The notes beneath the pieces were generated by a model that was not told the origin of the DNA, made no database searches, and was given only the letters and a program-made list of their open reading frames with translations. 35,720 nucleotides of DNA from an uncultured Anaeromyxobacter sp. (GTDB lineage Bacteria; Myxococcota; Myxococcia; Myxococcales; Anaeromyxobacteraceae): contig CAIQRS010000192.1 in assembly GCA_903874275.1 (NCBI GenBank), positions 1 to 35,720 of the forward strand, in the 5' to 3' direction. The first letter of the stretch is position 1. Each line of letters starts with the position of its first letter. Below are positions 3 through 12,439 of the stretch, piece after piece. The position numbers and the translations under genes are program-made.

Positions 3-485
3 TTCGTGGTGCTCGACGAGCCCATGAGCGGGCTCGATCCCATCGGGCGCAAGGAGGTCCGCGACCTGATCGTCGAGCTGAAGCGTCGCGGGAAGACGGT
101 CTTCTTCTCCACCCACATCCTCCCCGACGTGGAGTCCATCTGCGACCGGGTGGGCGTCATCCTGGGTGGGAGCCTCCGGGACGTGGGGCGCATCTCCGAC
201 CTGCTCTCCCCGCGCGTCCGGAGCGTGGAACTGGTCCTGGACGTGCCCGGGACGGCGCGGGAGGGGATCGCAGCAGGCAAGCTGCTCTCGCGCGACCAGG
301 ACAGGCACGCGGTGTCCTTCCCCGATCTGGAGAGCGCCAACGCGGCGGTCGCGGTGGTCCTCGCTTCCGGGGGGACGCTCGTCTCGCTCGTCCCCCACCG
401 GGAGACGCTCGAGGACTTCTTCATGCGAAGGCTGGAGGAGGGGAAGTCCGCCGGGGAGCCGGGGCGCGCCCGGGAAGTCGGGTGA
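3..485 (+). CDS. pilH: ABC transporter ATP-binding subunit, PilH-like (5' truncated)
   Basis: This is the C-terminal half of an ABC ATPase; the window edge removes the Walker A and signature motifs. The visible part opens in Walker B (FVVLDEP), followed by the D-loop (SGLDP) and the H-loop histidine (FFSTHI). A roughly 85-residue C-terminal extension follows, as in ATPases of gliding or export-type ABC-2 transporters. It ends four bases into the prepilin peptidase gene (GTGA overlap), so the two are probably translationally coupled. In M. xanthus an ABC system (PilG/H/I) sits at the same place in the pil cluster and is needed for pilus export or assembly, so PilH is the best name. I infer this from context; the family alone does not specify it. 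A permease gene, if present, must lie upstream of the window. Confidence 0.72.
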   Translation, partial: FVVLDEPMSGLDPIGRKEVRDLIVELKRRGKTVFFSTHILPDVESICDRVGVILGGSLRDVGRISDLLSPRVRSVELVLDVPGTAREGIAAGKLLSRDQDRHAVSFPDLESANAAVAVVLASGGTLVSLVPHRETLEDFFMRRLEEGKSAGEPGRAREVG

Positions 486-1336
486 ACGCCCTGCCGGACT
501 CGGTCCGATGGGCCGTGGCTACATGGTCGTTCGCGCTCGGCGCCGTGGTGGGCAGCTTCCTCAACGTCGTCATCTACCGGGTGCCGGCGGGCGAGTCGAT
601 CGTCCGGCCCCGGTCCCGCTGTCCCGGCTGCCTCACGCCCATCTCCTGGCAGGACAACATCCCGGTCCTCTCCTGGATCCTCCTGCGGGGGCGGTGCCGG
701 ACCTGCCGGACGGCCATCGCCTGGCGCTACCCGCTCGTCGAGATGCTGGGGGGCGGCGCCGCGCTCGTCGCCTTCTCCCGCCACGGCCTCTCGCCCGCCG
801 CGCTGGCCGAGTTCGGTTTCGCCGCGACCCTCCTCGCGCTCTCCTTCATCGACCTCGACACCTGGACCCTTCCGCACGCCATCACCTTCCCGCTCCTCGC
901 CGCGGGACTCCTCCTCTCGCCGCTTCACCTGACGCCGGCAGGCACCTTCCTCGGAGCGATCGCGGGGGGCGCGGCCGGCTGGCTCGCGTTCGCCGGAGTG
1001 GCCTTCCTGGGCGAGCGACTGCTGAAGAAGGAGGCGCTCGGTTTTGGGGACGTCTGGCTTCTCGCGGCCATCGGCGCCTGGCTTGGCCTCGCGCCCCTGC
1101 TCCCGGTCGTCCTGCTGGCCTCGCTCCAGGGGACGGTCATCGGGATCGCGCTGATCCTCCTCGGAAAGGCCCAGACCGGCCAGGCCGCACCTGAGGTGCC
1201 ACCGGCCGACGACGGCTGGGTGCCCCCCCGCAACGCCGTCCCGTTCGGCCCGTTCCTGGCCGCAGGCGCGCTGGAGTGGCTCTGGCTCCAGGGATGGATC
1301 ACCAACCTCGTCCCGAGCCTCAGGCTCTTCACGTGA
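482..1336 (+). CDS. pilD: Prepilin peptidase / N-methyltransferase PilD
   Basis: This is the inner-membrane aspartic protease that cleaves the leader from prepilins and N-methylates the new terminus. At 284 residues it is normal full length. Residues 15-40 carry the family signature GSFLNVVIYR. The cytoplasmic loop has two zinc-binding pairs, CPGC (47-50) and CRTC (72-75). The first catalytic aspartate is D124 in IDLD and the second is D190 in GFGD; hydrophobic helices fill the rest. Two positions usually conserved near the active site differ: the LPD motif reads LPH (130-132), and the residue two after GFGD is Trp192 instead of the usual Lys. The start is a GTG overlapping the upstream stop by 4 bp, and the next gene starts 4 bp after the stop. 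Confidence 0.93.
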   Translation: MNALPDSVRWAVATWSFALGAVVGSFLNVVIYRVPAGESIVRPRSRCPGCLTPISWQDNIPVLSWILLRGRCRTCRTAIAWRYPLVEMLGGGAALVAFSRHGLSPAALAEFGFAATLLALSFIDLDTWTLPHAITFPLLAAGLLLSPLHLTPAGTFLGAIAGGAAGWLAFAGVAFLGERLLKKEALGFGDVWLLAAIGAWLGLAPLLPVVLLASLQGTVIGIALILLGKAQTGQAAPEVPPADDGWVPPRNAVPFGPFLAAGALEWLWLQGWITNLVPSLRLFT

Positions 1337-1340
1337 AGCC

Positions 1341-2462
1341 ATGAAGGCCAAGGGCACGCGCATCCTCCTGACGGTGACCGTGGCCTCCGCGGTCGCGGTC
1401 GGGGTGTGCCTCTTCGTGGCCGCCACGCTGGTCCTGCGCGCCACCGGGAGTCCGCTCGGGACCGCGCTGGCCCTCTCCGCGGGAGTGGCGTCCATCTTCG
1501 TGGTCTGGGCGGCGTCCTCCATGCTGGTCCGCCGCGTCGCGCGCCCGGTCGAGCGGGTCCTGGCGGCGGCCGAGGCCATCCAGGCCAGCGCTCCCGGCCA
1601 GCTCCCGCTCGTGGGGGAGAGCGGGCTCGGCCTCGACCAGGCCGCCCTGGCCTTCGAGCGCACCGCGGCGGCGCTGGCCGAGGAACGGGCCACGCTGGCG
1701 GCCAAGGTCGACGAACTCACCCGGGCGAACCGGGCGCTCGCGGACGCGAGGGAGTCCCTCCTGCGTTCGGAGAAGCTCGCGACCGTGGGGAGGCTGGCCG
1801 CTGGGGTCGCCCACGAGGTGGGCAACCCGCTCGGAGCGATCACCGGCTACGCCGAGCTGGCGCGCACGCGCTTGCCGGCCGGAGGGGATCCCCTGCTCGC
1901 GAACGCCATCGACCGCATCGCCTCCGCGGCCGTGCGCATCGACCACACGGTGCGGGGACTGCTCGACTTCGCCCGGCCCGGGGCGTCCGAACTCGGGCCG
2001 GTCTCGGTGCCGGCGGCGCTCGAGGCGGCGCTCGACCTCGCTCGGGTGCAACCCCGCTTCCGGGACGTGGAGGTCAAGGTAAGGATCGCGGAGGACCTTC
2101 CGCCCGTTGTCGGCCGCGACCGGGAGCTCTGCCAGGCCGTCCTGAATCTCCTCCTCAACGCGGCCGACGCCATGGAGGGGAGGGGGCGCGTCGAGATCGA
2201 CGTCGCCCGGGCCGGAGACCGGGTCGAGGTGGCCGTCGCTGATCAGGGCCCTGGGATTGCCCCCGGCGATCTGGGGCGGATCTTCGATCCCTTCTTCACC
2301 ACCAAGCCACCGGGCGCGGGGAGCGGCCTGGGCCTCGCCATCACCCATTCGATCGCCGGGTCGTTCGGTGGAACGATCGAGGCCGCGAACGGGGACGGAA
2401 GGGGAGCGGTGTTCCGGCTCAAGCTCCGGGCGGCGGGGAGTGGGGCGCCGCTGCCCTCATGA
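1341..2462 (+). CDS. pilS2: Sensor histidine kinase, PilS2/NtrB-like
   Basis: This is a membrane-bound two-component kinase of 373 residues. Two transmembrane segments (about 8-31 and 40-62) flank a very short periplasmic loop, so it probably senses an intramembrane or cytoplasmic signal. A HAMP-like linker (about 62-120) follows. HisKA carries the phosphoacceptor H158 in AAGVAHEVGNPLGAI. The HATPase domain has an N-box around N273 (LLNAADAM), a G1 box DQGPGI (301-306), an F-box FDPFF (315-319) and a G2 box GSGLGL. The HEVGNPL form is typical of NtrB-type kinases that partner sigma-54 activators. The likely partner is the response regulator one gene downstream; in M. xanthus pilS2-pilR2 occupies this spot. 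Its stop overlaps the next start (ATGA). Confidence 0.85.
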   Translation: MKAKGTRILLTVTVASAVAVGVCLFVAATLVLRATGSPLGTALALSAGVASIFVVWAASSMLVRRVARPVERVLAAAEAIQASAPGQLPLVGESGLGLDQAALAFERTAAALAEERATLAAKVDELTRANRALADARESLLRSEKLATVGRLAAGVAHEVGNPLGAITGYAELARTRLPAGGDPLLANAIDRIASAAVRIDHTVRGLLDFARPGASELGPVSVPAALEAALDLARVQPRFRDVEVKVRIAEDLPPVVGRDRELCQAVLNLLLNAADAMEGRGRVEIDVARAGDRVEVAVADQGPGIAPGDLGRIFDPFFTTKPPGAGSGLGLAITHSIAGSFGGTIEAANGDGRGAVFRLKLRAAGSGAPLPS

Positions 2463-4681
2463 GCGCGCGAGGGCCGATCCCGGTGCGCCGGCGCACGCAG
2501 GACGCCGCGGGTCTCGCCCTGGTGCTCGGGCTGGCATGCTGGGTGCGGGTGGCCCGGTTCGCGAGACCCCTGGCGGGGGGGGAGCTCCTCGCCATCGACG
2601 GGGACAGCCATCACCACGTCCGGCGCATCCAGGGAGCGCTGCGCGGAGCGCTGCCCACCTTCGACCCGCTGGTGAACTGGCCCGAGGGCGGCATCGCACC
2701 GTGGACCGACGGATTCGACCGGCTTGGCGCTGCATTCGCGTGGGTTGCCGGTGGAGGCCACTCCGGACCGCGCGCCGAGATGGCCATCTTCCTCTGGCCC
2801 GTGGTCCTCGGGATCCTCGCGGTCTGGGCCACGGTGGACGTGGCCCGCCGGCTGGTCCCGGCGGGCGACCAGGCTACCCCTCTCGCCGCGGGCCTGGTCG
2901 CCGCGTTCGTACCGCAGTTCGTCCAGATCTCGTCCTTCGGGAACGTGGATCACCACATCGCCGAGGCGCTCTCGGTCCTGCTTCTCCTCTCCTGGGCCCT
3001 GCGCCGGTTTCCGGTCGGCGAAGAGGCCCGGCCCGGCCTGGCCTGGGAGGGAACCGGTGCGCTCGCCGTGGTCTTCGCGCTGTGGGTCTTCATCGGCGGA
3101 GAGCTTTACGTGGCGCTGGTCGCCCTTCCCCTCGGGCTCGCCGCGATGGGGATGGACCCGAAGCGGCGCCTCACCGGCTCCGGGGCGCCGGCCCTGCTCG
3201 GAGGCGCGCTCCTCGGAGCCGTGGCGTCCCTCCCGGCACTCTCGGTGCACGGCAAGGTCTTCTCCTTCGCGCTTCCGTCGATGGTCCAGCCTGGACTCGT
3301 GGGCATCGCTGGCCTCGCGCTCTCAACGATGGTGCTGGTGGGCCGGGTCCCGTCGCGGCCCGGGAGGCGCGCCTTCCCGGTGATCCAGATTGGGGCGGCG
3401 CTCGCGGTCGCCGCACTCCCCCTCGCCCTCGTCCCCGCACTGCGGCACGAACTCGCGCGGGCGATCCACGGATGGTTGATGGCGAAGGATCCCTGGATCG
3501 CCCAGATCGCGGAGTTCCAGCCGATTGTCCGGCTCGACCCCCGGGGCGGGCTCGACCTGAAGCCCGTGCTGGACCTCCTCGGACCCTTCGGGTTCCTGGC
3601 GGTACCGGCGCTGCCCTTCGCGGTGGCCGTCGCGTGGCGTCTCTCCCCGGCCCGGGCGGGCCTCTTCGCCTGGACGGTGACCTCGCTCTCGGTGCTGGCC
3701 TTCTCCCAGCTCCGCTTCACGCGCGTGGCCGCACCTCTGCTCGCGGTGGCGCTCGCCCTCGCACTGCGGGGGGTATCGGCCTGGCTCGGGCGGGCGCCCG
3801 TCCTGGCGCGGCTGGCCGGTCCCGCACCGCTGCTCGCCACGGCCCTGCTCGTCGCCGGGAACTCCGGTCTGCGCACCCTTCTCGCCATCGCGGAGCCACG
3901 CACGCCCTCGCCGGTGCACCAGGTGGCGCTCGCGCTGCGCCTGGACCGGCCCCCCGTCCCTGGCCACCGGGACGGCGTGCTGGCGCCGTGGGACCTGGGG
4001 CACGCGCTCCAGCAGGTCTCCGGGAGGCCAGTCGTGGCCAACGGATTCGGTACCTACCTTGACCCGGACTCGTTCCGGGAGGTCCAGGACGCCTTCCTCG
4101 GCGACGAGCAAGGGCTCGTGCGCACGATGGAGGAGCGAGACCTGGGTTTCGCGCTGGGAGGAGGGCACGCGATCGCGCGCCACCAGGCCCAGCCGGGGGA
4201 GGAGGGCATCGTCGAGGGAGACCCGCCGGTGCTGAACCTCCGCTACATGCGCGGGACCCCGCTGTCCCAGCTCCTCATCGCGGGCTCGGGTCTCCCTTCC
4301 GTCGGGGTGCCGCACCTGGAGCGGCTCATGCCGGTCGCGGCGAGCGAGGTCGTGGCCGAGAAGCTGAGCTTCCCGCTTCCCGTCGTGTGGGCGTACGAAC
4401 TGGTGCCAGGTGCAAGGGTCGTCGGGCAAGGGGATCCCGGTGGGCTCGTCGCCGGCGAGATCGAATTCCACGAGTGGGGGCGGCCCCACCGGTACCGGGC
4501 ATGGACGCGCGCCGACGGCGCCGGGCGCTGGGAACTCCGCGTCGCCGTTCCGAGCGGCTTTTCGACCCACACCATCCGCACCGGCCCGGCCTGGCGCATC
4601 ACCCAGGGTGACGGAAGGGTCGTCGACGTCGCCGTGCCCGAGACGGCGGTTCGCGGCGGCCTCGCCATCCCCCTTCCGTGA
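2459..4681 (+). CDS. STT3-family oligosaccharyltransferase-like membrane protein
   Basis: This is a 740-residue polytopic membrane protein of GT-C architecture. The first periplasmic loop has the acidic motif DGDSHHHVRRI (47-57), matching the DxD/DxYYHxR position of STT3/AglB/PglB enzymes. It is followed by FDPLVNWPEGG (68-78) and a tryptophan, as in STT3 loops. DHH at 164-166 is the usual second acidic loop. After about ten further hydrophobic segments, a soluble C-terminal region contains PWDLGH (510-515) and RPVVANGFG, the counterpart of the WWDYG motif that binds the acceptor sequon. I infer that it transfers a lipid-linked glycan to secreted protein. Its place between kinase and regulator of the pil cluster, with 4-bp overlaps on both sides, makes pilin or another pilus component a plausible substrate. 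Family assignment is fairly secure; the substrate is unknown. Confidence 0.75.
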   Translation: MSARGPIPVRRRTQDAAGLALVLGLACWVRVARFARPLAGGELLAIDGDSHHHVRRIQGALRGALPTFDPLVNWPEGGIAPWTDGFDRLGAAFAWVAGGGHSGPRAEMAIFLWPVVLGILAVWATVDVARRLVPAGDQATPLAAGLVAAFVPQFVQISSFGNVDHHIAEALSVLLLLSWALRRFPVGEEARPGLAWEGTGALAVVFALWVFIGGELYVALVALPLGLAAMGMDPKRRLTGSGAPALLGGALLGAVASLPALSVHGKVFSFALPSMVQPGLVGIAGLALSTMVLVGRVPSRPGRRAFPVIQIGAALAVAALPLALVPALRHELARAIHGWLMAKDPWIAQIAEFQPIVRLDPRGGLDLKPVLDLLGPFGFLAVPALPFAVAVAWRLSPARAGLFAWTVTSLSVLAFSQLRFTRVAAPLLAVALALALRGVSAWLGRAPVLARLAGPAPLLATALLVAGNSGLRTLLAIAEPRTPSPVHQVALALRLDRPPVPGHRDGVLAPWDLGHALQQVSGRPVVANGFGTYLDPDSFREVQDAFLGDEQGLVRTMEERDLGFALGGGHAIARHQAQPGEEGIVEGDPPVLNLRYMRGTPLSQLLIAGSGLPSVGVPHLERLMPVAASEVVAEKLSFPLPVVWAYELVPGARVVGQGDPGGLVAGEIEFHEWGRPHRYRAWTRADGAGRWELRVAVPSGFSTHTIRTGPAWRITQGDGRVVDVAVPETAVRGGLAIPLP

Positions 4682-4716: not shown

Positions 4717-6093
4717 GTGGCCTTCCGGAACGTCCTCGTGGTCGACGACGAAGAGTCGATGCGCCACCTGCTCACCGTGATCCTCGCCGATCGCGGCTAC
4801 GACGTCCGGGCGGTCTCGAACGGCGAGGACGCCCTGCGCGAGCTCTCGTCCCGCGACTACGACCTGGTCCTCTCCGACGTCCGCATGCCGCGCATGGACG
4901 GCCTCACGCTGGTCCGCGAGGCGCTCGACCTCCACCCCGGCATCACCTTCATCGTGATGAGCGCCTACGGCACCCACGACACGGCCATCGAGGCCATGAA
5001 GGCCGGGGCCTACGACTACGTGTCGAAGCCCTTCAAGCCCGACGAGGTCCTGCTGGTGCTCCGCAAGGCGGAGGAGCGGTTGCGCCTCTCCCGCGAGAAC
5101 CGGCGGCTGCGGTCCGAGCTCCAGGGCGGCTTCCGGCTGGAGAACTTCGTGGGGTCGTCACCGTCCGTGCAGGAGGTCCTCCGCCAGCTCCGCAAGGTGG
5201 CGCCCACCAGGGCCACCGTGCTCGTCACCGGCGAGTCCGGGACCGGGAAGGAGCTGGTGGCCCGGGCCATCCACGAGCTGTCGCCCCGCTCGGCCATGCC
5301 CTTCGTGGCGGTGAACTGTGGCGCCATCCCCGCCGAGCTCATCGAGTCGGAGCTGTTCGGCCACGTCCGCGGCGCCTTCACCGACGCCTCCCGTGACAAG
5401 AAGGGGCTGGCCGCCGAGGCCGACGGCGGGACCCTCTTCCTCGACGAGATCGGCGAGATGCCCCTCCACCTCCAGGTGAAGCTCCTGCGCTTCCTGCAGG
5501 AGGAGCAGGTGCGCCGTGTGGGAGACACGCGCTCGGAGAAGGTGGACGTGCGCGTGGTGGCGGCCACCGCGCGGGACCTCGCACGTGCGACCAAGGAAGG
5601 TCTCTTCCGGGAGGACCTCTTCTACCGGCTCAACGTGGTGAACCTGCGCCTCCCCTCTCTCCGGGAGCGCCCCGACGACGTTCCCGCGCTCGTCGAGCAC
5701 TTCCTGGCCAAGCACCGCCGCCTCCGTCCGGAGGCACCCCTCCGGGGTGTATCCCCGGAGGCGCTCGAGCTCCTCCGCTCCTACCGGTGGCCCGGAAACG
5801 TCCGGGAACTGGAGCACGCCGTCGAGCGGGCGGTGGTCCTCGCCGACGGGCCACTGCTCGGGGAATCGGACCTTCCGGACGACGTTCGCGAAGGTCCGAG
5901 GCCCGCCGCTCCCGCTTCCCGGCCCGGCGGCGACCTGTCGGTGAAACGGGCCTTCCGGGCCCTGGAGGAGCAACTCATCCGGGACGCCCTGGAGCGAACG
6001 GGGGGAAACCGGACCCGCGCCGCCGAGCTCCTCGATCTCTCCTACCGGGCCCTCCTCTACAAGGTGAAGGAGTACGGGATCGATCAGCCGTGA
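4717..6093 (+). CDS. pilR2: Sigma-54-dependent response regulator, PilR2/NtrC-like
   Basis: This is a 458-residue NtrC-family activator. The receiver domain has acidic D10-D11, phosphoacceptor D54 (LSDVRMP) and K104. The AAA+ domain follows with Walker A GESGTGKE (172-179), a sigma-54 contact loop GAFTDA (219-224), Walker B GGTLFLDEIGE (238-248), and an arginine-finger region. The C-terminal Fis-type helix-turn-helix is GNRTRAAELLDLSYRALLYK. The fifth position of the GAFTGA loop is Asp instead of Gly. I chose GTG 4717 because VLVVDDEE then begins at a normal distance. GTG 4678 would overlap the upstream stop (GTGA) and add 13 residues rich in proline, and it cannot be excluded. By position it is the partner of the kinase at 1341-2462 and probably acts on pilus gene promoters outside this window. 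Confidence 0.9.
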   Translation: MAFRNVLVVDDEESMRHLLTVILADRGYDVRAVSNGEDALRELSSRDYDLVLSDVRMPRMDGLTLVREALDLHPGITFIVMSAYGTHDTAIEAMKAGAYDYVSKPFKPDEVLLVLRKAEERLRLSRENRRLRSELQGGFRLENFVGSSPSVQEVLRQLRKVAPTRATVLVTGESGTGKELVARAIHELSPRSAMPFVAVNCGAIPAELIESELFGHVRGAFTDASRDKKGLAAEADGGTLFLDEIGEMPLHLQVKLLRFLQEEQVRRVGDTRSEKVDVRVVAATARDLARATKEGLFREDLFYRLNVVNLRLPSLRERPDDVPALVEHFLAKHRRLRPEAPLRGVSPEALELLRSYRWPGNVRELEHAVERAVVLADGPLLGESDLPDDVREGPRPAAPASRPGGDLSVKRAFRALEEQLIRDALERTGGNRTRAAELLDLSYRALLYKVKEYGIDQP

Positions 6094-6264: not shown

Positions 6265-7323
6265 ATGGCGAAGAACAAGCTGGCCCTCGGCCTCGACATC
6301 GGCTCCTCGAGCGTGAAGCTCGTGCACCTCAAGGAGGGGAAGCGCGGCTACACGCTTCTCGCCTGGGGCGAGGCGCCGCTGCCGCCCGAGTCCGTCGTGG
6401 ACAACCAGCTCATGAACTCCTCGGCCATCGTCGAGGCCATCCGGCAGCTGGTGGCCCAGCAGCGGGTCAAGGTGAAGGACGTGGCCATCGGCGTCCGCGG
6501 CCACTCGGTCATCATCAAGCGCATCTCCATGCCGGTGATGTCCCAGGAGGACCTCGACGAGTCCATCCAGTGGGAGGCGGAGCAGTACATCCCCTTCGAC
6601 GTGAAGGACGTGCACATCGACACGCAGATCCTGACGCCCAAGGGCGACGCCGCCGGGCAGATGGACGTGCTGCTCGTGGCCGCCAAGAAGGACATGATCA
6701 ACGACTTCACCGCGGTCTGCGCCGAGGCCGGCCTGACCGCCACGGTCGTGGACGTGGACGCCTTCGCGGTCCAGAACGCCTTCGAGGCCAACTACCCGCA
6801 GGCTCCGGGCCAGCCGGTGGTCCTCATCAACGTGGGCGCCGCCGTCACCAACATCAACATCGTCAGCAACGGGCTGGCCATCTTCACCCGCGACATCACC
6901 GTGGGTGGAAACGCCTTCACCGAGGAGATCCAGAAGCAGCTCAACATCTCGGCCGAGGAGGCCGAGGCCCTCAAGGTGGGCGGCCACGGGGAGACCGACG
7001 CGGTGGTCCCGCAGGAGGTCGAGCGGGTCATCCAGGGGGTCGCCGACCAGATGGGCGGCGAGATCCAGCGCTCCCTCGATTTCCACGCCGCCACCGCGCC
7101 CGACATCCACCCGACCCGGGTCTACCTGTCGGGCGGGACCGCGCGGATCCCTGCGCTCTTCAAGGTCATCGAGCAGCGGGCCGGGGTGCCCGTGGAGATC
7201 CTGAACCCCTTCAAGAACATCGAGGTCGACAACCGCAAGTTCGACCCGGCCGTGATCATGAACGCAGCGCCCGCTGCGGCGGTGGCGGTCGGCCTCGCGC
7301 TCCGCCGCCCCGGAGACAAGTAG
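6265..7323 (+). CDS. pilM: Type IV pilus assembly protein PilM (actin-like ATPase)
   Basis: This is a 352-residue cytoplasmic actin/FtsA-fold protein of the pilus alignment subcomplex. The N-terminal phosphate-1 motif is LGLDIGSSSVKLV (about 8-20). A second phosphate region, VVLINVGAAVTNINIV, begins about 190, and an adenosine motif, VYLSGGTARIP, lies near 290. These match the fold that binds ATP and the N-terminal tail of PilN. Length equals the usual 350-355. The ATG is preceded by a strong Shine-Dalgarno. It heads a tight pilM-N-O-P-Q run whose gaps or overlaps are 2-5 bp, so the set is probably one transcript started in the upstream gap. Confidence 0.95.
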   Translation: MAKNKLALGLDIGSSSVKLVHLKEGKRGYTLLAWGEAPLPPESVVDNQLMNSSAIVEAIRQLVAQQRVKVKDVAIGVRGHSVIIKRISMPVMSQEDLDESIQWEAEQYIPFDVKDVHIDTQILTPKGDAAGQMDVLLVAAKKDMINDFTAVCAEAGLTATVVDVDAFAVQNAFEANYPQAPGQPVVLINVGAAVTNINIVSNGLAIFTRDITVGGNAFTEEIQKQLNISAEEAEALKVGGHGETDAVVPQEVERVIQGVADQMGGEIQRSLDFHAATAPDIHPTRVYLSGGTARIPALFKVIEQRAGVPVEILNPFKNIEVDNRKFDPAVIMNAAPAAAVAVGLALRRPGDK

Positions 7324-7325
7324 CC

Positions 7326-7904
7326 ATGATCCGCATCAATCTACTTCCCGTCCGGGTCTCGAAGAAGAAGGTCGCCGGGAGGCAGCAGATCCTCCTGCTC
7401 GGCCTCGTCGTCATCCTGGCCATCGTCGCCAACTGGGTGTGGTCCTCCTCGCGCGCCGGCGACCTGGCCTCGCGGGAGTCCAAGCTGCGCCGCACCAGGG
7501 ACGAGATCGCCCAGCTCGACCGGATCATCGGCGAGGTGAAGGACATCAAGGCGCAGCAGGCGGCGCTCAAGGAGAAGCTCGACACGCTCGAGAAGCTCAA
7601 GGCGGGCCGCGCCGGGCCGGTGAAGCTCCTCGACACGCTGGCCCAGGTCCTGCCGCCCCGGCTGGAGATCCGGAAGATGGAAGAGAAGGGCGGCGCCGTC
7701 ACCTTCGACGGGTCGGGGGCCACCATCGACGACGTCTCGGCCTTCATGACCGCGCTCAAGCAGACCCCCTTCTTCTCCAAGGTCGAGCTGAAGAAGACCA
7801 CCGCGGTGACCCGCGCCGGGCTGCGCATCGTGGACTTCACCGTCACCGCGCAGGCCAACTACACGCCCGGGCCCGCCGCGCCGGCCGCTCCGGCGAGGAG
7901 GTAA
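7326..7904 (+). CDS. pilN: Type IV pilus assembly protein PilN
   Basis: This is a 192-residue bitopic inner-membrane protein. The first residues, MIRINLLP, are the conserved cytoplasmic tail that inserts into PilM. One transmembrane helix (about 22-42) is followed by a coiled-coil stretch (about 48-95) and a small ferredoxin-like periplasmic domain. The C-terminus is Pro/Ala-rich. It starts two bases after the pilM stop. Family and order (M-N-O-P-Q) leave little doubt. It bridges the cytoplasmic PilM ring to periplasmic PilO. Confidence 0.93.
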   Translation: MIRINLLPVRVSKKKVAGRQQILLLGLVVILAIVANWVWSSSRAGDLASRESKLRRTRDEIAQLDRIIGEVKDIKAQQAALKEKLDTLEKLKAGRAGPVKLLDTLAQVLPPRLEIRKMEEKGGAVTFDGSGATIDDVSAFMTALKQTPFFSKVELKKTTAVTRAGLRIVDFTVTAQANYTPGPAAPAAPARR

Positions 7905-7909
7905 CGGCC

Positions 7910-8545
7910 ATGGACCGGATCCTCGACGCGATCGCCAAGGCGCCCATGGCCGCGAAGGCCGGCGTGATCGCCGCCATCGTGGTGCTGCTCACCGCGCTCA
8001 ACTACTTCGTCGTCGCCATCCCGACCTTCGGCAGCTCGATCTCCGAGGTCGAGCAGAAGATCGTGCGGACCGACGCCGAGCAGCGGCGGCTCGACAACGA
8101 CCTGATCGAGAAGACCGCCATCGCCAACAACCTGAACCAGTTCCGGCGCGAGAAGGAGCTCCTCGAGCAGCGGCTGCAGGAGGCGCTGGCCGAGCTCCCC
8201 GAGGAGAAGAAGATCGACGAGCTCCTCCAGCTCTTCCAGGAGAGGGCCCGCAAGGCCGGGCTGGAGATCGCCACCATCGAGCCGATGCCCGAGGTGAACG
8301 AGAAGTTCTACGCCCGGGTCCCCATCAACATGGTGGTCACCGGGAACTTCCACGAGCTGGTGACCTTCTTCGACTCGCTGGCCCGCCTGCGCCGCATCGT
8401 CAACGTGAACAACATCCTGCTCGACTCCCCCAAGGACACCCGCGGCAAGGTGATCCTGAACGGCAAGTTCCTGGTCACCACCTTCATGTTCGTCCAGCCC
8501 AAGGTCGAGCCGCCCAAGGCCGGCGCGGCAGGGGGGAAGAAATGA
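7910..8545 (+). CDS. pilO: Type IV pilus assembly protein PilO
   Basis: This is a 211-residue partner of PilN. A short cytoplasmic segment is followed by one transmembrane helix (about 15-38), a charged coiled coil (about 43-100, rich in Glu/Arg/Lys heptads) and a periplasmic ferredoxin-like domain (about 105-195). The Lys/Pro-rich tail is short. The ATG lies five bases after the pilN stop. The stop overlaps pilP by 4 bp (ATGA). PilN and PilO form heterodimers that link the inner-membrane platform to the lipoprotein PilP. Confidence 0.93.
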   Translation: MDRILDAIAKAPMAAKAGVIAAIVVLLTALNYFVVAIPTFGSSISEVEQKIVRTDAEQRRLDNDLIEKTAIANNLNQFRREKELLEQRLQEALAELPEEKKIDELLQLFQERARKAGLEIATIEPMPEVNEKFYARVPINMVVTGNFHELVTFFDSLARLRRIVNVNNILLDSPKDTRGKVILNGKFLVTTFMFVQPKVEPPKAGAAGGKK

Positions 8546-9060
8546 GCCGCCCCCTCCGCACCCTCGTCGTCGCCGTGGCGCTGCTCGCCGCCGCCTGCGG
8601 CGAGCAGAAGCCCGCCGTCCCCAGGGCTTCCCCGGCCCCCGCAGCCAAGGCCGCCGCCGTCCCCGCCGTCCCCGCCCCAGCCCCCGAGGCCGAGGTCGCC
8701 TACTCCTCGGTGGGCAAGCGCGATCCCTTCAAGAGCTTCCTGGGCGACCTGGGCGCCAGCGTGGGGGCGGTGACCACCCGCTGCAACACCCCGCTCGGCC
8801 GGTTCGAGCTCGATCAGCTGCGCCTGGTCGCCGTCATCACCGGCCTCGCCGACCCGCTGGCGATGGTCGAGGCCCCCACGGGCGTCGGGTACTCCGTCCG
8901 CAGGGGCGCGTGCATCGGCAAGAACGGCGGTGTCGTGGCGACCATCCGGACCGGGGAGGTCGTGGTGACGGAGTGGGCGATGCGCGCCGACGGGACGCGG
9001 GAGAAGACCGAGACCGCCCTCCGGCTTCCGAAGGACAAGTCGCTGAACCTCGAGGAGTAG
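8542..9060 (+). CDS. pilP: Type IV pilus lipoprotein PilP
   Basis: This is a 172-residue predicted inner-membrane lipoprotein. The signal peptide ends in the lipobox LAAAC with Cys19. A flexible Ala/Pro-rich linker (about 22-50) follows, then the compact C-terminal beta domain (about 60-165), with KRDPFKSF at its entry as in other PilP proteins and two cysteines (in TRCNTP and RGACIG). The domain contacts the N0 region of PilQ. The four-base overlap with pilO and four-base gap to pilQ are consistent with one transcript. Confidence 0.9.
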   Translation: MSRPLRTLVVAVALLAAACGEQKPAVPRASPAPAAKAAAVPAVPAPAPEAEVAYSSVGKRDPFKSFLGDLGASVGAVTTRCNTPLGRFELDQLRLVAVITGLADPLAMVEAPTGVGYSVRRGACIGKNGGVVATIRTGEVVVTEWAMRADGTREKTETALRLPKDKSLNLEE

Positions 9061-9064
9061 CGCG

Positions 9065-11767
9065 ATGCGGAACCACAGCCAGATCGTCGCCGGACTCGCC
9101 CTTGCCGGGCTGCTCGCACTGCCCGCCCCGGGAGCGGCCGGACCGCCCGTCCCCAACGTCATTCGCGCCGTGGACGTCGCAGACCGGGACGGTGGCGTCG
9201 AGGTGGACATCCGGGCCACCCGCGCCCCCAGCTACACGGTCTTCAAGCTCCAGGATCCGCCGCGGCTGGTGATCGACGTGTCGGGCGGGGACGTCTCGGG
9301 CGTCGCCTCGCCCGTCCGGGTGGACCGCGGCGGCGTTGCCTCGGTGAGCACCGCCCAGTACCAGGACGAGAAGACCAGCGTCGGCCGGGTGGTCATCGGT
9401 CTCGATGCCTCGGCGCGGTACGAGGTCGCCCCCCAAGGCGAGACCGTCCGCGTGAAGGTGCTTCCCGGCGTGGCCACGCGGGACGTCCAGCCGGCCGCCC
9501 CGGTGGCCCAGGCGGCCGCACCGGCGCCCGAGCCCGCTCCCCCGGTCGCCGTGGCCGCCGAGCCGGTCCAGGCAGTCCCCGCCCCGGCCTCCGGGAGCGG
9601 CGACAACGTGGTGTACCGCCGCGTGGACGAGGCGAGCCCGAGGTCCCCTGCCAGCGCCGTGACCGGCGTGAAGGTGGAGGGCGACCGGCTGGTCGTCCAG
9701 ACCAACGGCGCGGTTGGAACCTTCGAGGTCATCGAGCTCAGGAACCCGCCGCGCGTCGCCATCGACCTGCCCGGCGTGCAGAAGGCTCCCAAGAAGGCGC
9801 TCTCCGCGGGCGCAGGGTTCACGCAGGTCCGCTTCGGCCGCGGCGACGCCAAGGTGCGCGTGGTGCTCGACGCCGCCGACGACGTGACCGGAGTGGAGGT
9901 CAAGCGCACGGCCCAGGGGCTGTCGGTCCGCACCGCGGCCGCCGTCGCCCGGTCGCAGGCCCCGGCGCCCATCCAGGCCCAGGCGCCGGTCGAGGCCCAG
10001 GTCCACCCCGCTGCACCGGTCGCTCCGGCTGCACCGGTCCTCGCGGCCATCAAGGACCTCAAGGTGAGCCAGTCGGGAACCACGGCCCGCATCGAGGTGT
10101 CCGGACGGGTGGAGCACGCCATCTCCCGCCCCGACCCCCGCACCATCGTCCTCACGCTGGAGGGGGCGAAGCTCCCGGCGCGGCTCGAGCGCTCGGTGGA
10201 CACCAGCGGCGTCTCCGGTCCGCTCCTCATGGTCTCCTCCTTCAACCAGCCGTCGGGCAAGGTGCGGGTCGTCGTCACGCTCCGCGGCGAGGCCAGCGAC
10301 CAGGTCGTCGAGACCTCGAAGGGGCTCGTCTGGACCGTGGTCTCGGGCCAGGGCGAGCGCCACGCAGCCGAGGAGGCCCCCGAGGTCCCCGCGGCCGTCA
10401 CCGCCCAGGCGGCCGGATTCGGCGCCGCCGCTCCCGACTACGCGCTCCTCGGCGCGCCCGGCCAGAAGGCGTACACCGGCCAGCGCATCACCCTCGAGTT
10501 CCACGACATCGAGGTCCGCAACCTGCTCCGCCTCCTCGCCGACGTGTCGAAGAAGAACATGGTCGTCGCCGACGACGTGGGCGGGAAGATCACCGTCTCG
10601 CTGCGCAACGTCCCCTGGGACCAGGCCCTCGACATCGTTCTCCAGTCGAAGGGGCTGGGCAAGCAGGAGATGGGCAACGTCATCCGGATCGCCAAGTTCG
10701 ACGTCATCGCCAAGGAGGAGGCGGCCAAGCTCGAGGCCCAGAAGAACCGGCAGATCCTGCTCCCCCTCAAGGTGCGCATCATCCCGGTCAACTTCTCCAC
10801 CGCGGGCGAGCTGGCGCGCCAGGTGAAGGACGTCCTCACCGACCGCGGCACGGTCACCATCGACGAGCGGACCAACGTCCTCATCGTGAAGGACACGCAG
10901 GAGGCCCTGGCCCGGGCCGAGGGGCTGGTCCGGAACCTCGACACCGAGACTCCCGGCGTGCTCATCGAGAGCCGCATCGTCGAGGCCAACTCCAACTTCA
11001 CCCAGGCGCTCGGCGTCCAGTGGGGCGGAAACTTCGGCTTCAGCCCGGCCACCGGCAACGGGATCCCGGTCTCCTTCCCCAACACGATGCAGGGCACCGG
11101 CGCCGCGGGCCAGGCGCCCAACCAGGGCGTCGGGACCACGCCCAACTACGCGGTCAACCTGCCCGCCCCCATCGGCCAGGGCTCCGGCGGCGGCATCGGC
11201 CTGGTCCTCGGATCCGCCAACGGCGCCTTCAACCTGAACCTCCGGCTCACCGCGCTGGAGCGCAAGGGCATGCTGAAGACCATCTCCGCTCCCAAGGTCG
11301 CCACGCTCGACAACAAGGAAGCCACCATCTCCCAGGGCCAGTCGATCCCGTTCTCCCAGGTCTCGGCCTCGGGCGTGAACACCACCTTCGTGGAGGCGCT
11401 GCTCGAGCTCAAGGTGACGCCGCACGTCACCGCCGACGGCTCGATCCTCATGAAGATCAAGGCCACCAACAACAAGCCCGACCCGAGCCTCACCGGCGCC
11501 AACGGCCAGCCCTCCATCACCAAGCGCCAGGCCGAGACCACCGTGCTCGTGAAGGACGGCGACACCACCGTCATCGGCGGCATCTACACCCGGACCACCG
11601 CCGCCATCACCAGCTCGGTGCCCTTCCTGGGCGACATCCCCATCCTCGGATTCTTCTTCAAGTCGAAGACCGAGTCCGACGACCACACCGAGTTGCTCAT
11701 CTTCATCACCCCGCGTGTGCTGAACCGCCAGGCTGCCGTGGGCGGCCCCACGCCGGTGGCGAACTAG
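9065..11767 (+). CDS. pilQ: Type IV pilus secretin PilQ with three AMIN domains
   Basis: This is a 900-residue outer-membrane secretin through which the pilus exits. A signal peptide (about 1-25) is followed by three AMIN-type peptidoglycan-binding domains at about 30-135, 198-300 and 325-430, separated by Ala/Pro/Gln linkers. The N0/STN domain (about 472-560) has LEFHDIEVRNLLRLLADVS. A secretin N1 domain (about 565-650) and the secretin barrel domain (about 655-890) follow, the latter with VPFLGDIPILGFFFKSK near the C-terminus. Many PilQ proteins carry one or two AMIN domains; three in about 900 residues matches what is known for M. xanthus PilQ. It closes the pilM-Q run. Confidence 0.96.
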   Translation: MRNHSQIVAGLALAGLLALPAPGAAGPPVPNVIRAVDVADRDGGVEVDIRATRAPSYTVFKLQDPPRLVIDVSGGDVSGVASPVRVDRGGVASVSTAQYQDEKTSVGRVVIGLDASARYEVAPQGETVRVKVLPGVATRDVQPAAPVAQAAAPAPEPAPPVAVAAEPVQAVPAPASGSGDNVVYRRVDEASPRSPASAVTGVKVEGDRLVVQTNGAVGTFEVIELRNPPRVAIDLPGVQKAPKKALSAGAGFTQVRFGRGDAKVRVVLDAADDVTGVEVKRTAQGLSVRTAAAVARSQAPAPIQAQAPVEAQVHPAAPVAPAAPVLAAIKDLKVSQSGTTARIEVSGRVEHAISRPDPRTIVLTLEGAKLPARLERSVDTSGVSGPLLMVSSFNQPSGKVRVVVTLRGEASDQVVETSKGLVWTVVSGQGERHAAEEAPEVPAAVTAQAAGFGAAAPDYALLGAPGQKAYTGQRITLEFHDIEVRNLLRLLADVSKKNMVVADDVGGKITVSLRNVPWDQALDIVLQSKGLGKQEMGNVIRIAKFDVIAKEEAAKLEAQKNRQILLPLKVRIIPVNFSTAGELARQVKDVLTDRGTVTIDERTNVLIVKDTQEALARAEGLVRNLDTETPGVLIESRIVEANSNFTQALGVQWGGNFGFSPATGNGIPVSFPNTMQGTGAAGQAPNQGVGTTPNYAVNLPAPIGQGSGGGIGLVLGSANGAFNLNLRLTALERKGMLKTISAPKVATLDNKEATISQGQSIPFSQVSASGVNTTFVEALLELKVTPHVTADGSILMKIKATNNKPDPSLTGANGQPSITKRQAETTVLVKDGDTTVIGGIYTRTTAAITSSVPFLGDIPILGFFFKSKTESDDHTELLIFITPRVLNRQAAVGGPTPVAN

Positions 11768-11776
11768 GAGACGGCC

Positions 11777-12439
11777 ATGAAGACCCGAAACCTCGCCGCC
11801 GCCATCCTCGCCCTCGGCCTCTCGGCCTGCTCGGCCGAGTTCAGCGCGGTGGGCATCTACGCCATCTGCGCGCCGCCGGACCCCGACGCCACGTCCGGCG
11901 CCTGCCTCTACCCCGCCACCTGCGACGCCAACTTCGCCGGGACGCCGCTCCTCGACGTGACCACGGCCCAGCTCGATTTCCGGATGCCGGTGCAGATCAA
12001 CAACGCGCTCACCGACAACTCGAACTCGACCGGCCGGATCAACACCAACGACGCCACAATCACCTCGTTCGAGATGACCTATGCGGGAGTGGCCCTTCCG
12101 ACGTGGAAAGTCGCGGCGTCGGTCCCGGTGCCGACGGCCGGCTCCTCCGGAGCCCTGCTGCGGCTCATCCCGGTGCAGTACTTCCCGACCCTCGTTCCTC
12201 CGGGCAGCGGCAACATCAGCATGATCGTGAACGTCCGGGGGCACGGAGTCCTCGACTCCCAGGACAGCTTCACCACGGCCTGGTTCCAGGTCCCCGTGGA
12301 GGTCTGCGCCGGGTGCCTGGCGGGCACCGTCTGCCCGCCGGGGTCCATCTTGGCCACCTGCCCGTCGACGGCCGCCGGCCAGACGTCCCCGGGCCAGAGC
12401 GCAAGCTTCACCTGCATCGGCGCCGCCGCCCGCGAGTGA
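11777..12439 (+). CDS. Predicted lipoprotein downstream of pilQ, unknown function
   Basis: This is a 220-residue protein I do not recognise. The N-terminus is a lipoprotein signal with lipobox LSAC (Cys18). The mature part has about ten cysteines, clustered near the start (ICAPP, ACLYPATC) and the end (VCAGCLAG, VCPPGS, ATCPS, FTCIG), suggesting several disulfides in a small surface or periplasmic domain. The middle is beta-rich and Thr/Asn-rich. It lies nine bases after pilQ and is followed by a promoter and a terminator-like hairpin, so it is probably the last gene of the pilus transcript. A role in secretin assembly or pilus surface function is guesswork from position. It shows no clear similarity to the lipoprotein at 29826. 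Confidence 0.75.
   Translation: MKTRNLAAAILALGLSACSAEFSAVGIYAICAPPDPDATSGACLYPATCDANFAGTPLLDVTTAQLDFRMPVQINNALTDNSNSTGRINTNDATITSFEMTYAGVALPTWKVAASVPVPTAGSSGALLRLIPVQYFPTLVPPGSGNISMIVNVRGHGVLDSQDSFTTAWFQVPVEVCAGCLAGTVCPPGSILATCPSTAAGQTSPGQSASFTCIGAAARE

Follow-up and report, generated by a model that had tools for sequence, protein, structure and literature searches.

An STT3/AglB-type gene in the type IVa pilus cluster of an uncultured Anaeromyxobacter and its recurrence at myxobacterial pilus loci

Archaea are known to modify type IV pilins through STT3-type enzymes, and the bacterial pilin glycosyltransferases described so far are, to our knowledge, O-linking or arabinosyl enzymes. In the gene order of M. 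xanthus, the place between pilD and pilM is presumably that of the second pair of kinase and regulator genes. The type IVa pilus (T4aP) cluster of that species contains two such pairs, pilR1S1 and pilR2S2 (PMC6060248), and glycosyl- or oligosaccharyl- terms are absent from the text of the paper describing it. The roles of the acidic, DHH, TIXE and WWDYG motifs of STT3 proteins have been reviewed, the last of them forming the Ser/Thr pocket that reads the N-x-S/T sequon (PMC8342417, PMC3703281), and in Pseudomonas pilin glycosylation has been linked to escape from pilus phages (PMC11841053). Here these systems are compared with a locus of an uncultured Anaeromyxobacter sp., in which a predicted membrane glycosyltransferase of the STT3 superfamily is encoded within a T4aP cluster. 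The whole stretch of DNA that was analysed, 35,720 nucleotides in length, is referred to as the window.

The STT3-type protein and its motifs

The gene (2459..4681, + strand) has an ATG start and encodes 740 aa, and profile evidence confirms its predicted product as STT3/AglB-type. A profile search matched the protein to TIGR04154 (archaeo_STT3) at E 7.8e-43 and 147 bits, a score that falls under the 450-bit cut-off of this curated, equivalog-level model, and to PF18079 (AglB_L1) at E 9e-7 and 29.3 bits, above the cut-off of 23.6, the latter match marking a peripheral domain at residues 651-737 (4409..4669, + strand). Through these significant matches to curated STT3-family models the protein belongs to the STT3/AglB/PglB superfamily. 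The initial annotation had named PF02516 as the check on its STT3 assignment; the assignment stood by way of the two models above, and PF02516 itself came in under its cut-off (E 0.0039) and, when used alone in the genome search, missed the gene altogether. With a profile built from the window protein and seven relatives, the nearest solved structure was AglB-L of A. fulgidus (3WAJ, 5GMY; E 1.1e-25), the match spanning three stretches, namely the membrane half, the region of the WWDYG motif and the C-terminal domain. Chance resemblance of motifs is ruled out by these E-values and by the alignment to AglB-L. Hydropathy revealed about 11-12 separate hydrophobic segments, all N-terminal of residue 468, where the superfamily pattern is 13 transmembrane helices followed by a soluble C-terminal domain; an AlphaFold2 model from the single sequence was unusable (pLDDT 40.2). 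Neither the window protein nor TIGR04154, used as query, brought up a second STT3 copy in the own genome, and a plasmid search gave no match.

The landmarks first read from the letters proved to be present in order: D47-G-D49-SHHHVRRI, D164-H-H, P510-W-D-L-G-H and RPVVANGFG, with E352 in IAEFQP lying between the second and the third. In the alignment to 3WAJ, D49 of the first acidic motif, DGDSHHH (codons 47-53, 2597..2617), corresponds to AglB D47, the DHH motif (codons 164-166, 2948..2956) to D161, H162 and H163, with D164/H166 matching D161/H163, and the glutamate of IAEFQP (codon 352, 3512..3514) to E360 of TIXE, the TI of which has been lost in the window protein (IAEF); all of these codons are on the + strand. 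The acidic residues of loops 1 and 2 and the glutamate of loop 5 that typify the superfamily (DXD, DHH and TIXE types) are thus all found, and D47, D49, D164, H166 and E352 are invariant across eight homologues.

The WWDYG motif of canonical N-glycosylating oligosaccharyltransferases is not retained intact: the window protein has PWDLG (codons 510-514, 3986..4000, + strand, by alignment), close relatives have NWTFG, SWDSG, PWTWG or NWEDG, and members of a second clade of pil-linked proteins, described below, have SWNET-like sequences. The pil-linked proteins keep the second W of the motif and have lost the first, which is absent from all of the relatives examined. Judged from the alignments, then, the catalytic residues are kept and the sequon-reading motif is degenerate throughout the group. 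A pattern search of the window protein for DK, MI and DGGK gave no match, variant DK motifs being hard to see without a structure (PMC3703281). Both the degenerate WWDYG and the lack of DK/MI and DGGK matches would suit an enzyme that still has the STT3 fold and whose acceptor is a lipid or polysaccharide, no longer a peptide. We regard this as very unlikely, given that the protein retains both the glutamate of loop 5 and the AglB_L1 domain and that the genes are linked to those for pilins and prepilin peptidase.

The pil cluster around the gene

The window begins with the 3' part of a pilH-type ABC ATPase gene (3..485), followed by the prepilin peptidase gene pilD (482..1336, profile match), a PilS-type histidine kinase gene (1341..2462), the STT3 gene, a PilR/NtrC-type sigma-54 regulator gene (4717..6093) and pilM-pilN-pilO-pilP-pilQ (6265..11767; profile matches, with PilN, PilO and PilP assigned by position and conservation), all on the + strand. 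A 220-aa cysteine-containing lipoprotein-like gene right after pilQ (11777-12439) is kept in the family at about 30-74% identity and has no Pfam match. Another contig of the same assembly, C66, shares exactly 141 bp with the start of the window, within pilH, and contributes pilA, pilG, pilI, a minor-pilin-like gene and one encoding a 558-aa TPR-tailed membrane protein of transferase-like design (L148, 3284-4960, + strand), some 1.8 kb downstream of pilA. The family of this last protein has six members in the genome and could be called TMTC-like by its architecture, Pfam giving TPR only. Two candidate glycosyltransferase genes, from families unrelated to each other, are thus present in the pil cluster of this genome. 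The window contains no dedicated donor genes; lipid-linked glycans are plausible because PF02397 initiating transferases exist in the genome.

The kinase and regulator were identified by profile matches and synteny. Their place between pilD and pilM fits pilS2/pilR2, and it is by this position only that we number the pair, which is probably pair 2 rather than pilS1/pilR1. The stop codon of the kinase gene and the start of the STT3 gene share a 4-bp ATGA (2459..2462, + strand), an overlap already noticed in the initial annotation and borne out by GTGA counterparts at the same junction in two other genera (G013, G023). A second overlap, with the regulator, had also been thought possible. A GTG does exist at 4678, but the start that relatives have in common lies at 4717, leaving a gap of 35 nt to the STT3 gene, so this second 4-bp overlap is unlikely and was dropped. 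In eight genomes where no STT3 gene separates the kinase and regulator genes, these are 9-48 nt apart, and therefore the gene is, as had been proposed, an insertion into the kinase/regulator module.

Recurrence at pilus loci in Myxococcota

Gene calls outside the window were made with simple scripts that relied on codon usage or on codon-position GC, and several of the relatives are fragmentary assemblies. A BLAST-level STT3 match was obtained in 10 of the 24 genomes of the window's own family, and in seven own-family genomes the gene is located within the pil cluster or next to it, the site differing among several of them. It lies between kinase and regulator in the window genome (G000) and in G013; G023 has it in two pieces on separate contigs, which read pilD-kinase-STT3 and STT3-regulator-pilM, and G008 shows no more of it than the 3' end, adjoining the regulator at a contig end. 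Other positions are between pilH and pilD (G005), after pilD, where it opens a block of glycosyltransferase and other genes (G010), and divergent from pilA, about 0.3 kb away (G003). The question of whether orthologues keep one position across Myxococcota thus received a divided answer: linkage to the pil locus recurs, the site is not fixed, and the closest relatives, G015 and G016 of the same genus, lack the gene, for which reason it cannot be needed for the pilus as such. Identity to the window protein is about 40% for STT3, whereas in most of these genomes the regulator reaches 72-74% and PilM at least 78%; STT3 therefore either evolves fast or moves.

Other cargo is found at the same locus. 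Between pilH and pilD, G015 has a gene for a 564-aa membrane protein with TPR repeats, and the kinase-regulator interval of G004 holds one for a 632-aa protein of similar TPR design together with FAD_binding_4, short-chain dehydrogenase and UbiA genes; around the kinase of G010 there are FAD_binding_4, UbiA and dehydrogenase-like genes, the dehydrogenase being called by sequence only. This trio, present in the pil clusters of these two relatives (L090:9949-14851, L076:3053-5961), may represent a donor pathway of the decaprenyl-phosphate-arabinose type, resembling DprE1/DprE2/UbiA. A DprE1-like gene is absent from the window's own genome and was ruled out as part of the donor pathway of the window enzyme. 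In G004, G010 and G015, glycosyltransferase-like genes other than STT3 thus occupy the pil interval, and YfhO-family proteins are encoded at the pil locus of G003. Genes of the TPR-tailed family are common here, and in several genomes without a pil-linked STT3 they lie within several kb of pilA; mutual exclusion of the two kinds of gene at the pil locus, which had looked likely, was rejected, as the own genome has both and the numbers are small. In G022, the interval between regulator and pilM holds pilin-like genes together with one encoding a 1607-aa protein (L089:10966-18797), so it takes other pilus cargo too.

Across Myxococcota, TIGR04154 matched 103 of the 195 genomes at E 1e-3, in many cases weakly. 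In the distant family f11, two STT3 genes (G027) or one (G030) lie between pilA-pilG-pilH and pilD, accompanied by GT2, epimerase and methyltransferase genes (L091:863-15000, L094:1500-12851), and a similar cassette, with a partial STT3 where the contig stops, stands beside pilD in G031. In f14 (G035), the gene is 2.5 kb from pilG-pilH. In genus g17 of f6 (G069, G070), it follows pilH and is accompanied by YfhO and other membrane-transferase-like genes, pilG also being seen in G070. Counting the window's own family, pil-linked STT3 genes therefore recur in four Myxococcota families. In a maximum-likelihood tree of 27 STT3 proteins the pil-linked ones fell into two separate, fully supported clades, the second of which includes members without demonstrated pil linkage; as a label on this tree, pil linkage requires 2 changes, a number as low being reached in 18 of 500 shuffles.

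Many other STT3 genes of Myxococcota lack a pilus gene in their neighbourhood, and this, together with the patchy presence in the own family and the several positions at one locus, favours a general cell-envelope protein glycosyltransferase, the pil location of which reflects regulation or hitch-hiking and the substrates of which are unrelated to pili. We think this unlikely, as linkage in four families and two clades would be hard to obtain by hitch-hiking alone. Other STT3 genes adjoin a Tad operon in G002 and small Flp-like pilin genes in G060, G094 and G096 (loci of one or the other kind are L072:9120-19998, L095:9079-11479 and L101:9028-11480), the two Flp-like pilins tested matching PF04964 at E 4e-5 and 2e-4, under cut-off; this is possibly a second kind of linkage between STT3 and pilins.

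Proposed role and relation to known pilin glycosylation

The position of the gene in the pilus locus is the one expected of a pilin glycosyltransferase, and its recurrence at pil loci suggests that myxobacterial pili may be decorated with sugars. We consider that the protein probably glycosylates a pilin or other pilus protein (probability about 0.7), as the initial annotation had supposed; the recurrence in four families has strengthened that proposal. Behind it stand STT3/AglB homology, conserved catalytic residues and location in the pil cluster, all of them established from sequence, and it should be kept in mind that a pil neighbourhood does not prove the substrate. The activity, donor, acceptor protein and linkage type, as we infer them, would be as follows. 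A single-subunit membrane glycosyltransferase of the STT3 fold would take a preassembled glycan from a lipid of polyprenyl-phosphate type, the donor chemistry being expected to be that of STT3, and transfer it at the outer face of the inner membrane to a T4aP protein ahead of pilus assembly, the likeliest acceptor being PilA, the major pilin, or one of the minor pilins. The gene would be translationally coupled to that of the PilS2-type kinase inside the pil cluster, and so the enzyme is probably made together with pilus parts. It would belong to an exchangeable set of glycosylation genes, different ones of which are carried at the pil locus by different myxobacteria.

A special case of this explanation, that of a canonical N-linked oligosaccharyltransferase acting on N-x-S/T of PilA or minor pilins, was part of the initial annotation. 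In its favour are the STT3 fold with its AglB_L1 domain, the three sequons of the own PilA (N39-V-T, N107-A-T and N146-A-T) and an NGT at the same position in one of the two PilA proteins of G027 and in that of G030. Against it are the degenerate forms of WWDYG in the window protein and its relatives, and sequon counts that do not follow the enzyme: pil-linked carriers have 3 (G000), 1 (G005), 2 (G013), 0 (G010) and 0 (G003) in PilA, against a mean of about 1.3 in genomes without a pil-linked STT3. PilA sequons were therefore discarded as a marker of STT3, and, being unrelated to its presence, they lend no support to N-x-S/T transfer to PilA; the special case is conceivable and, to our minds, doubtful. 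Somewhat bolder, and put forward here as a tentative and rather unlikely suggestion, is that the pil-linked proteins are a pilus-dedicated branch in which the sequon reader has decayed because the acceptor is chosen otherwise, by the pilin fold or with Ser/Thr instead of Asn, so that transfer is sequon-free or O-linked, and whose genes are swapped with other transferases at one pil hotspot. Were this true, there would be a sequon-free or O-linked form of the STT3 fold.

A search of the open-access literature, most subscription journals lying outside it, found no report of a pil-linked bacterial STT3, which is weak evidence that the linkage to bacterial pil loci is new. A recurrent gene of this kind would allow pilin glycosylation in myxobacteria to be tested through one gene, and enzymes of the STT3 type whose acceptor pocket is altered would be of use in studies of the evolution of sequon reading and in glycoengineering.

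Among known systems, the M. xanthus pilR2S2 pair (PMC6060248) is likewise the second kinase/regulator pair in a T4aP cluster, whereas that of the window is split by STT3. PglB of Campylobacter and Desulfovibrio (PMC4894442) is, like the window protein, a single-subunit bacterial STT3-type enzyme, but a far weaker match to the window profile (3RCE, E 0.11 vs 1e-25 for AglB-L). With AglB-L of A. fulgidus (3WAJ, 5GMY, 7E9S; TIGR04154 family) the window protein has in common the membrane half with its acidic motifs and DHH, as well as the loop-5 glutamate and the C-terminal AglB_L1 domain; it differs in PWDLG for WWDYG, in giving no match to the DK/MI and DGGK patterns, in scoring far below the TIGR04154 cut-off, and in being bacterial and within a T4aP cluster. 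TfpO and TfpW of Pseudomonas (PMC11841053) showed no homology to it in any search made, in which they were not compared directly, but their logic is similar to that of the exchangeable cargo at the myxobacterial pil locus: accessory glycosyltransferase genes tied to particular pilins, encoding unrelated enzymes in different strains. Recurrent STT3 genes in bacterial T4aP clusters would connect bacterial pilin glycosylation with that of archaea.
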